DNA of 64,000 nt from Beijerinckiaceae bacterium RH AL1 (lineage in GTDB: Bacteria > Pseudomonadota > Alphaproteobacteria > Rhizobiales > Beijerinckiaceae). The stretch spans positions 1,860,597 through 1,924,596 of the forward strand of contig LR590083.2 in assembly GCA_901457705.2 (NCBI GenBank), given 5' to 3'. The notes under the pieces are model-generated. The model was not told where the DNA came from. It was given only the letters and a program-made list of their open reading frames with translations, and ran no database searches. Position 1 is the first letter of the stretch. Each line of letters starts with the position of its first letter. Below are positions 46,650 to 53,493 of this stretch, one piece after another. A program made the position numbers and the translations under genes.

Positions 46650-47096
46650 TTACTCCTGCAGCGGCACGCTCTTGCGGTCGAGGCGTTCGCCAAGTGCATC
46701 GATCGATTTGGCGACCCGAAACAGCGGCAACGTCACGAGGTAGAGATAGGCGACCAGGGGAAGCGCATTGACCAGCAGGGTCTTCTCCCAGCTCTGCCCG
46801 TCCGCCGCGGCCGCCGGCGCGATGACGACGGCTACGCCGGACTGCGCCAGGCGCGTCGCGATCGCCGGATCGTGCGGCAAGGTGACGGAGAACGCCCGGT
46901 TCTGGTCGTCGTGTCCGGTTGCCTCGTCGCCACGGATGGTCACGTCCCGCACGTGCGGCTGCATTGTCAGGAAGTCAGTGTAATTGATCTTTTGGCCGAC
47001 GATCTTCTCGCGCGGGTCCTGGAACAGGATGATCAAGGCGAAGAGCAGCAGCACGGCAATGATGATGAGCGTGTAGATCCATCTTGATTTCGACAT
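46650..47096 (-). CDS. Free-standing FtsH N-terminal (membrane/periplasmic) module
   Basis: A 148-residue protein that matches only the N-terminal part of the membrane protease FtsH: helix (~7-26, YTLIIIAVLLLFALIILFQDP), the periplasmic domain with KINYTDFLTMQPHVRDVTIRGDEATG, FSVTLPHDPAIATRLAQSGVAVV, and a second helix (~108-125). It then ends with a short charged tail; no AAA+ or zinc-protease domain follows. It may be an inhibitor, an adaptor of the real FtsH hexamer or a relic. The start lies in an AT-rich upstream region with a 12-bp palindrome (GCTTTCGAAAGC, 47108-47119). Confidence 0.75.
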   Translation of the reverse strand: MSKSRWIYTLIIIAVLLLFALIILFQDPREKIVGQKINYTDFLTMQPHVRDVTIRGDEATGHDDQNRAFSVTLPHDPAIATRLAQSGVAVVIAPAAAADGQSWEKTLLVNALPLVAYLYLVTLPLFRVAKSIDALGERLDRKSVPLQE

Positions 47097-47466: not shown

Positions 47467-47600
47467 TCTTCCTCTACCTCCCTGGGCTTAGCCTCGTGCA
47501 CTTCCTCTCCGCCGCTGCACTGGGCTTCATGTCCGTTTTGTCCGGCAAGGCGCTGCGCGACATGTTCCAAGACCGCTCGCCCGACCATCCCCTCCGATGA
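47463..47600 (+). CDS. Tiny membrane protein 2 of a coupled trio
   Basis: A 45-residue product (MIFLYLPGLSLVHFLSAAALGFMSVLSGKALRDMF in part) with one membrane segment (~3-28). It starts within the stop of the previous gene and ends within the start of the next (ATGA both times), implying coupled translation. The family is unknown. Confidence 0.55.
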   Translation: MIFLYLPGLSLVHFLSAAALGFMSVLSGKALRDMFQDRSPDHPLR

Positions 47601-48040
47601 TCAGGGCGCTCCTCCGGCGTTCGCTCGTCACGGGCTTGGCGGGTGCGGCCACGTCCACCGCAGCCTTGACTGTCGTCGCGAAGCTCGAAGGCCGCGGCGC
47701 GGTGCAGCCGTTGAACGCGACCAGCCACTGGCTGCACGGCGACCGCGCGGCGCGACAGCGCCAGGCCGATCTCGCCCGCACAGGCGTCGGGCTTGGGACG
47801 CATGTCGCGGCGACGATCTTCTGGGCCAGCCTGTTCGAGACCTGGATGCTCGACCGGCCGGCGCGCGACGCAAGCGAGGTTGCAGCGCGCGCGGCCGTCG
47901 TCGCCGGGCTCGCTGCCGTGGTCGACTACACCGTAACGCCCCGGCGCTTCACGCCTGGCTGGGAATTGGTCCTCTCCAAGCGCTCGATGGCGTTGGTCTA
48001 CGCGGCGATGGCGGTGGGCTTTGCCGCGTCGTCTCGATAG
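47597..48040 (+). CDS. Membrane hypothetical protein, third of a coupled trio
   Basis: A 147-residue protein with hydrophobic stretches at ~10-28, ~62-82, ~97-112 and ~128-145, and a conserved-looking PLNATSHWLHGDRAARQ block (~39-54). I recall similar proteins in Rhizobiales annotated as hypothetical. It starts within the stop codon of the preceding small gene. Confidence 0.65.
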   Translation: MIRALLRRSLVTGLAGAATSTAALTVVAKLEGRGAVQPLNATSHWLHGDRAARQRQADLARTGVGLGTHVAATIFWASLFETWMLDRPARDASEVAARAAVVAGLAAVVDYTVTPRRFTPGWELVLSKRSMALVYAAMAVGFAASSR

Positions 48041-48055
48041 CTGCTGTCGACCTGG

Positions 48056-48205
48056 TCAGTCCTCGAGGCCCTTGAAGCTCGCGTGACGCAGCTCGCCGGC
48101 CGTCGTCACGCCACGATAGGCGACGCGGGCGCGCAGGTCCGGCGAGCCGCTTGCGTAGCGCCGCGACGACAACGGTCGCAGCGGACCGTCACGCGCGCTC
48201 TTCTC
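48056..48205 (-). pseudogene. Relic: C-terminal end of an ATP-dependent DNA ligase (LigD type)
   Basis: The minus strand reads, in one frame up to TGA at 48056-48058, SGSPDLRARVAYRGVT, then TAGELRHASFKGLED, the typical last residues of NHEJ-type ATP-dependent DNA ligases (family pattern: V-x-Y/F-R-x-W/V-T-x-x-G-x-LRHASFKGLR/ED). There is no start or ligase core; an SDR gene begins where the rest should be. The matching N-terminal piece is at 49112-49297. Confidence 0.6.
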
Positions 48206-48217
48206 CGATAGCCGGCT

Positions 48218-48883
48218 TCAGCCGCCGAACACGATTTCCGCCGTGGCCGGGTCGGGCGCGGTCCGATGCAACGACAGCAGCGCCTGGGCGATGCGGTCTG
48301 GGTCGGATGTCGTGCCGGGAGCGACTGTCCCCATGACGGTCACTGTACCCACGCGAATGCCTTCGGGCGCCAGTTCCGCGGCCAGCATGAGCGCGAGCGC
48401 GCGCAGCCCGGCTTTGCCGATCGAGAGGGACGGTGCCTTACGCGAGGGATACAGTGCGAGCCCTTCGCCGGTGAACAGGATCGTGCCACGGCCTCGCCTG
48501 ACCATTTCCGGCGCGACGGCCTTGGCGGCGACGAGCGCACCGACCACGTCGACGCGGAAGTCTTCGACCAGATCCTCCGCCGTGGCTTGCAAGACGGGGC
48601 CCGGCCGCCAATGGGCTGCGTTGTACAACACGAGGTCCGGCGCGCCGAACGCTGCTTGCCCCATCTTTATAGCCCGTTCCAAAGCCGCAGCGTCGCCGGC
48701 GTCGGCTGCCACGCTCAAGGCGTAGACTCCTCGCTTGGAAAGTGCGGCGGCCGCGGCAGCCAGCTTGTCCTTATTGCGCGCAACCAGCACCAGCGGATGA
48801 CCCTCGACCACCATCTCGTTGACGAAGCTGGCGGCGATCCCTGCTCCATAGCCGACAATGATCGCCGGTCCTTTTTCATACAT
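48218..48883 (-). CDS. SDR family oxidoreductase lacking the usual Tyr
   Basis: A 221-residue short-chain dehydrogenase-like protein. The N-terminal motif is IIVGYGAGIAASFV (a variant glycine motif), then VLVARNKDKL and LVLYNAAHWRPG (NAA in place of NAG). At the active site the Ser region reads LFTGEGLALYPS and the YxxxK position reads LSIGK, so Lys is kept but Tyr is not. It may be a specialised subfamily. It sits between the two halves of a dead ligase gene, and its upstream region is less GC-rich (45% at 48901-48960). Confidence 0.75.
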   Translation of the reverse strand: MYEKGPAIIVGYGAGIAASFVNEMVVEGHPLVLVARNKDKLAAAAAALSKRGVYALSVAADAGDAAALERAIKMGQAAFGAPDLVLYNAAHWRPGPVLQATAEDLVEDFRVDVVGALVAAKAVAPEMVRRGRGTILFTGEGLALYPSRKAPSLSIGKAGLRALALMLAAELAPEGIRVGTVTVMGTVAPGTTSDPDRIAQALLSLHRTAPDPATAEIVFGG

Positions 48884-49111
48884 AATTGTTTTGTTCGCTG
48901 CTCTGAACTACCCTAGCGTTAGTAGCTCGACTACCTCATTGCCGCTCTTATGAAGAATATAATGACGAGTTGTTGTGCCTAGTTAGCCGGGCAGATTTGC
49001 AGCTAGCGCAACACGGAGTGCAGCTCGCGTATTCCCGGCGAAATGCCCCGTTAAGTTGTGCCCAATACTATCGGAGCGCTGAAGTTTGTTTCGGGCCCAG
49101 TCGAGGGCCGC

Positions 49112-49297
49112 TCAATGGTTTCGAGGACCGGGCGGCTTGTCGACGAGCGTCGGCAGGCACGGTCGGATCCACTTCGGCAGCGGCTCGTCGAATAAGCCAG
49201 ACTGGCGCGGATCGGCCGGTTTGGCGGGAACGGCGCGGTCGGCGACGGCGGCGCCTGGCAAGCCGGTCTTTCGCTTGCTGGGGCGCCGGGGGGCCAT
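49112..49297 (-). pseudogene. Relic: N-terminal end of an ATP-dependent DNA ligase (LigD type)
   Basis: A 61-residue frame: a basic Ala/Pro-rich head (MAPRRPSKRKTGLPG) followed by QSGLFDEPLPKWIRPCLPTL and VDKPPGP, which is how rhizobial ATP-dependent DNA ligases begin just before their HEIKWDGYR ligase core. Homology stops at PPGP and the frame closes three residues later. With the C-terminal relic at 48056-48205, it marks a ligase gene whose middle was replaced. Confidence 0.65.
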
Positions 49298-49330: not shown

Positions 49331-49477
49331 CTACAGTTCCGTGCCGCCGGCTTCACGTTCCCGCTCGATCCGCTCCGCCACAACGCGCTTCATCTGCCGT
49401 CGCAGCCAGATGACGCCGCCGGCGAACACCCCCACGTTGATGAGGACGACGACGGCGATCGCGACGGGAGGGCTCAT
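49331..49477 (-). CDS. Small single-pass membrane protein
   Basis: A 48-residue product: MSPPVAIAVVVLINVGVFAG begins a membrane helix (~5-25), followed by a charged helix WLRRQMKRVVAERIERERE. The minus-strand start ATG 49477 is in good context. The family is unknown; it is below usual length cut-offs. Confidence 0.5.
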   Translation of the reverse strand: MSPPVAIAVVVLINVGVFAGGVIWLRRQMKRVVAERIEREREAGGTEL

Positions 49478-49532: not shown

Positions 49533-49608
49533 TGGCGCGCCCAAGGGGAATCGAACCCCTGTTTTCGCCGTGAAAGGGCGACGTCCTAGACCGCTAGACG
49601 ATGGGCGC
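49533..49608 (-). tRNA. tRNA-Glu (TTC)
   Basis: The complement is a 76-base cloverleaf with CCA: acceptor GCGCCCA/TGGGCGC, anticodon loop CTTTCAC (TTC), T-loop TTCGATT. Confidence 0.95.
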
Positions 49609-50848: not shown

Positions 50849-50990
50849 TCAATCCCTCATGGTGAGGAGCGCGGAGCGCGTCTCGAACCAGGAGGGTCCA
50901 AGTGACTCGATCCGTGGACCGCCTCGTGGTTCGACTCGCGCTTCGCGCGGCTCACCATGAGGCTACTGGGCGCGCGTCGCCCGATCCGGG
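50849..50990. repeat. 140-bp intergenic repeat, copy 1
   Basis: A 142-bp element with internal symmetry: CCCTCATGGTGAG near the left end and CTCACCATGAGG near the right, GCGCGGAGCGCG and TCGAACCAGG answered by CCTCGTGGTTCGA and CGCGCTTCGCGC. It is repeated at 51034-51169 with few changes and a 6-bp difference near the right end. It resembles palindromic elements scattered in Rhizobiales genomes. Short frames within are not genes. Confidence 0.8.
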
Positions 50991-51033
50991 CTATACGTGG
51001 GCGGGTCCCGAGCTTCCGCAATCAGGCCGCTCC

Positions 51034-51169
51034 TCAGTCCCTCATGGTGAGGAGCGCGGAACGCGTCTCGAACCAGGAGGGTCCAGGTGGATCGATCCGT
51101 GGACCGCCTCGTGGTTCGACACGCGCTTCGCGCGGCTCACCATGAGGCTACTGGGTCGCCCGATCCGGG
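51034..51169. repeat. 140-bp intergenic repeat, copy 2
   Basis: The second copy in direct orientation, 136 bp, 43 bp after copy 1, ending eight bp before the stop of glgX. Differences from copy 1 are single bases plus loss of a GCGCGC hexamer. Together the pair fill most of the pirin-glgX gap (50741-51176). Confidence 0.8.
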
Positions 51170-51176
51170 ATGCCCT

Positions 51177-53321
<2,145 letters not shown>

Positions 53322-53493
53322 GTTGGTCGGGCGGAACGAAATGCGGCGCCCGTGCGTCGCACGTAACGAGCGCCGGGCCAAGACGTTCACGCAGGTTGGG
53401 TGATCCGCCTGCGGCGGGACTCAAAGCCCGCCGGCAGGGCGTTGATACGCAACGCCTATGACGCTGTCATCATGGTCGGGCGCGGCGTCGCGC

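Follow-up and report, generated by a model that had tools for sequence, protein, structure and literature searches.

Two ends of a stand-alone LigD-like ligase gene on either side of a probably imported SDR gene in Beijerinckiaceae bacterium RH AL1

Bacterial NHEJ relies on Ku and the three-domain LigD, whose ligase domain belongs to the same family as the stand-alone LIG-domain, LigD-like ligases (TIGR02779) encoded by ligD genes of rhizobial plasmids. Published work already describes LIG domains as present in multiple copies and borne by plasmids (PMC7719229, PMC10932983), and five ligD copies are given for S. meliloti (PMC10932983). A decayed copy is an expected leaving of such a multi-copy family. 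Here we describe a locus that is very probably a pseudogene of an accessory ligase of the stand-alone type, in which 743 bp have been lost and 983 bp of foreign-looking DNA bearing a gene of the SDR family lie in the gap. It is located in a window (the whole stretch of 64,000 nucleotides that was analysed) corresponding to positions 1860597-1924596 of contig C1 in a genome (G000) of 4,353,888 bases in two contigs; positions without a contig are those of the window.

The features of the locus lie on the minus strand, bounded by a tRNA gene and by the plus-strand frame 47597-48040. The 5' ligase remnant (49112-49297; 61 codons, with sure similarity at 49129-49291) is followed by a spacer of foreign composition (48884-49111), by an intact gene for an SDR-family oxidoreductase of 221 aa (48218-48883), and by a tail frame that ends at 48056, comprising a junction stretch (48146-48217) and, in frame with it, the 3' ligase remnant (48056-48145; 29 codons and a stop), i.e. 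the end of the OB/C-terminal domain. The tRNA-Glu (ttc) gene identified by ARAGORN and Rfam (49533-49608, minus strand) adjoins the 5' remnant, with a 48-aa frame (49331-49477) between them. The plus-strand frame 47597-48040 encodes a small protein that matches no Pfam or NCBIfam family; it has matches in 11 of 149 family genomes, its own among them (E <= 0.001), and a partial second copy at C1:2465327-2465443. The minus-strand frame 46650-47096 (148 aa) resembles the FtsH extracellular domain alone, without the ATPase or protease part (PF06480, E = 4.3e-5, 24.1 bits, below the cut-off of 25.5). On the other side of the locus, a dispersed repeat at 51001-51180 matches at least seven other places in the same genome with 81-88% identity, and 50855-51156, within the repeat region 50850-51180, has further matches on both strands (71-74%). 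The gene at 51177-53390 (minus strand), which we take to be GlgX-like, has two further relatives in this genome, with 75% and 70% DNA identity.

A DNA search of the genome itself, to which the E-values of the two fragment matches below refer, with the segment 47900-49660 as the query, returned two matches besides the segment itself and another tRNA-Glu, and both of them fall within one place, an intact ligase gene (C1:308674-309681, 336 aa) located 1.6 Mb from the locus and referred to below as the sister. The 5' fragment (49129-49291) matches C1:308689-308851 with 75% identity over 163 bp (E = 5.9e-24), in an open frame, on the right strand and in the right place, and the preliminary description had correctly read 49112-49297 as the start of a LigD-type ligase. 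The 3' fragment (48060-48145) matches C1:309595-309680 in 78 of 86 bp (91%; E = 5.8e-27). The end of the ligase, which had been placed at 48056-48205, is confirmed for 48056-48145; the junction stretch beyond it shows marginal similarity to the sister gene, with 9 of 300 shuffles reaching its score (56-243 of 300 in the case of four other ligases), and its assignment as possibly decayed ligase is insecure. Order and orientation of both fragments agree with the sister gene. Measured between their outer ends, the two matches span 992 bp in the sister and 1232 bp at the locus, and the inner ends are separated by 743 bp and 983 bp (48146-49128), respectively. A single stand-alone gene for a LigD-like ATP-dependent ligase has left both of these fragments as its two ends, and in structure the window copy corresponds to a pseudogene: a disrupted relative of an intact gene, with both ends colinear. 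The 5' break falls right after the residues KPP and before HEIKWDGYR of the intact protein, a stretch that we take to be the lysine motif of ligases, and the entire nucleotidyl-transferase domain is gone. Its profile, PF01068, has no match in the window and matches three places in the genome, all of them elsewhere, which makes the window copy a remnant and not a ligase.

Both fragments do align with ligases at the protein level, as had been anticipated. Among six ligase frames compared, the sister is the closest both to the 5' fragment (41/61 residues; others from 23/48 to 37/61) and to the 3' fragment (26/29 residues; others at most 22/29, the low values of 7/28 and 3/12 belonging to frames cut by assembly gaps), with the best frames of the congener G001 attaining at most 37/61 and 22/29. 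Since the sister is the closest relative of both, one source gene is enough to explain them. The differences from the sister gene in codon positions 1, 2 and 3 number 9, 11 and 21 in the N-terminal fragment and 1, 1 and 6 in the C-terminal one; the prevalence of third positions (21 of 41 and 6 of 8) is expected of a gene under selection until recently and suggests that the copies diverged while coding, and that the window copy broke afterwards. In profile scans, the 3' fragment alone matches only the last 27 positions of PF04679 (DNA_ligase_A_C; E = 7.8e-4, 20.2 bits, cut-off 27.5) and TIGR02779 with E = 2.8e-4, while the 5' fragment has no family match because it lies ahead of the part that the models cover: in the intact protein, TIGR02779 begins at residue 49.

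Neither fragment reaches a family cut-off, and the one from the 5' end is an open frame that terminates in its own stop, as might be the case if the two frames were independent small genes that resemble ligase ends by chance or due to domain recruitment. We find this hardly credible, given DNA E-values of about 1e-24 and 1e-27 to one and the same gene, in the right order, and given the arrangement of the homologous sequences in G001, the only one of the three congeners compared (G001-G003) with matches to the ligase ends. They occur there at nine N-type and six C-type places (E <= 0.001; one N-type match, in C204, is only 42 bp long) and form five N-type/C-type pairs 850-973 bp apart, a spacing as in ligase genes; the outcome that the preliminary description had named as refuting a split ligase, close relatives with the two short frames as independent genes, was not seen.

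G001 has nine PF01068 places, compared to three in the genome studied here, two in G002 and one in G003. Its copies in C9 and C199 are open over their full length, the first copy in C125 has an altered N-terminus, and the second copy in C125 as well as those in C114 and C132 are broken or fragmentary without internal assembly gaps. The notion that every partial copy in G001 is decayed had to be rejected in part: assembly gaps (runs of N) interrupt those in C3, C154 and C162, which were not counted. Y-family DNA polymerase genes (IMS; L031 3655-4971 and L030 7876-8976) are found about 0.9-1.3 kb from two of the G001 ligase copies, and polymerase and stand-alone ligase possibly form a small travelling repair cassette. 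In the family sample (149 genomes), the sister ligase is matched in 52 genomes at E <= 1e-60, many of these matches being LIG domains of long LigD frames. At the same threshold, 368 of 72,556 plasmid records carry a relative, all with less than 60% identity; among the 20 of these that were listed, identity to the sister protein is 45-47%.

The ligase core is replaced by a complete SDR gene (adh_short, E = 1.3e-26, 93.7 bits, above the cut-off of 26.6) and by a foreign-looking spacer, as the preliminary description had it. SDR enzymes usually exhibit the motif YxxxK; in an alignment of the window protein with five compared relatives, all of them lack the tyrosine that would stand four residues ahead of the lysine, and they represent a divergent SDR group. 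Matches to the SDR are confined to its own genome and G030 (38% identity) among the 149 family genomes at E <= 1e-30, and to its own genome and G480 (39% identity) among 385 genomes of the class at E <= 1e-40; G001 has none at E <= 1e-30. Nine loci were found in named genomes, the best three with 58-59% identity in two Sphingomonas MAGs and in Blastomonas natatoria, and the other six with 23-30%. A plasmid source was considered and rejected, as the plasmid records contain no match at E <= 1e-30. The GC3 content of the SDR gene is 76.6%, compared to 90.1-97.0% in five genes that serve as the native reference (those for LigD, the cisplatin-response ligase and Ku, and two that are presumably pirin-like and GlgX-like), and the spacer has 52.2% GC (43.3% in its SDR-proximal 97 bp), compared to 68.7% for the window. 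We infer that the SDR gene was probably imported together with its upstream DNA. Lower GC3 is also found in the ligase remnants (79.0 and 86.7%) and the sister gene (80.4%), compared to 90.1-90.8% for LigD, the cisplatin-response ligase and Ku, and therefore the ligase may likewise have been imported, and its fragments could in principle have moved in with the SDR gene.

The spacer exhibits no similarity to five ligases, with 90-249 of 300 shuffles reaching its score, and was rejected as a ligase remnant. It was also rejected as a remnant of a known protein, as five spacer-side peptides have no Pfam match; a sixth peptide, from 47949-48188, matches only ACC_epsilon (E = 0.31). In the 149 family genomes the spacer has, besides itself, only two matches of 20-25 bp (E 0.005-0.009), none of them convincing. 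When the SDR gene was subjected to the same comparison with five ligases, 12, 57, 0, 70 and 15 of 300 shuffles reached the score; homology between SDR and ligase was rejected, and the low counts are read as the shared codon periodicity of two GC-rich coding sequences, which the shuffles do not keep. The SDR is likely the only part of the locus that works, assuming that it is expressed, while the ligase ends would have no function.

The ancestral gene would have encoded a ligase of about 336 aa with a LIG domain only, from a family that exists in multiple copies and is often carried by islands or plasmids. Loss of about 743 bp would then have removed the catalytic domain together with most of the OB domain, and foreign-looking DNA of about 983 bp, the SDR gene with its upstream region, would have come into the gap in one or more steps; we infer this order of events, and a joint that would be illegitimate and not homologous. 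No repeats were found at the edges of the exchange, which favours an illegitimate deletion/insertion, at least as likely as recombination. The replacement by recombination proposed in the preliminary description is not borne out, in the absence of both flanking repeats and a donor with ligase arms. Recombination between the resident ligase gene and an incoming segment with ligase ends around the SDR gene would agree with the clean order and orientation of both ends, and the unequal identity to the sister (91% at the 3' end vs 75% at the 5' end) could mean two sources. However, the C-terminal end is also the better conserved one when compared with those G001 copies whose frames run on to the C-terminus, which explains the difference. 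Besides, no ligase-flanked SDR locus was found: in the adjacent DNA examined, none of five SDR loci (the three sphingomonad ones and those of G480 and G030) has a match to the ligase, nor to four other proteins of the window. Thus, we regard such a homologous replacement as quite unlikely. As for the origin of an illegitimate deletion/insertion, there is a small chance that the NHEJ machinery itself captured the foreign SDR fragment into a break in its own spare ligase gene; if so, repair itself would offer genomes that possess Ku and LigD a way of acquiring genes and shedding spare ligases, with insertions that lack repeats.

Comparison of gene order was based on a very noisy tblastx scan, of which only high-scoring matches were used, alongside other comparisons. 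The two flanks of the locus are not seen together in any of the three congeners, i.e. synteny is broken, and neither an intact ligase at the same site nor an SDR-free state of this site was found in them. G001 has kept the tRNA-Arg/tRNA-Pro block from the left of the locus (L120), and the 17 kb examined there contain no ligase, SDR or membrane gene; the pirin-like gene from the right of the locus is found elsewhere in G001 and G002 (L122, L123), without tRNA or ligase; and the G003 contig breaks off about 0.4 kb past tRNA-Pro (L121).

The sister is an intact enzyme by its domain content. Its frame (L005:8645-9685) has 346 aa from the first start, or 336 codons if read from 8675, and the protein contains a full LIG domain, scores 289 bits against TIGR02779 (NHEJ_ligase_lig; cut-off 227.75) and also matches PF01068 and PF04679. 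The other two PF01068 places in this genome are a cisplatin-response ligase (604 aa, TIGR04120) and a LigD of 904 aa with PE, LIG and POL domains; there is also one Ku (324 aa). The PE and POL models have no match among six frames of the window or sister scanned, and were found only in this LigD. The preliminary description had concluded that an NHEJ-type ligase was lost. This holds for one spare LIG-only paralogue, which is dead; as far as gene content tells, NHEJ would not be lost, with the sister, LigD and Ku all retained. The sister gene has a phage-type integrase at about 3.8 kb, an ISL3 transposase gene at 6.8 kb and an AAA ATPase in its neighbourhood, and on its other side what we read as an arsenic cluster, with FMN_red, SBF and LMWPc domains encoded there; by its look, this is an island.

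The sister resembles the known stand-alone LigD-like ligases: it scores above the cut-off of the family model, and plasmid-borne copies annotated as ligD in Rhizobium, Agrobacterium and Sinorhizobium can be aligned with it from end to end. The window copy, in contrast, has no core and cannot act as an enzyme. The three-domain LigD with Ku is present as a complete set in the same genome, but neither the remnant nor the sister shows its PE or POL domains. The SDR resembles divergent sphingomonad adh_short proteins over 219 residues, and differs from them in having ligase sequences beside it, whereas theirs has none in the adjacent DNA examined. As a whole, the locus reflects the usual birth and death of accessory genes, in a ligase family that is already known. 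It provides one clear example of this process in a multi-copy accessory repair ligase, at a locus that is otherwise ordinary, and a warning that a dead ligD-like remnant is uninformative about the NHEJ capacity of its host, which here keeps the complete set.
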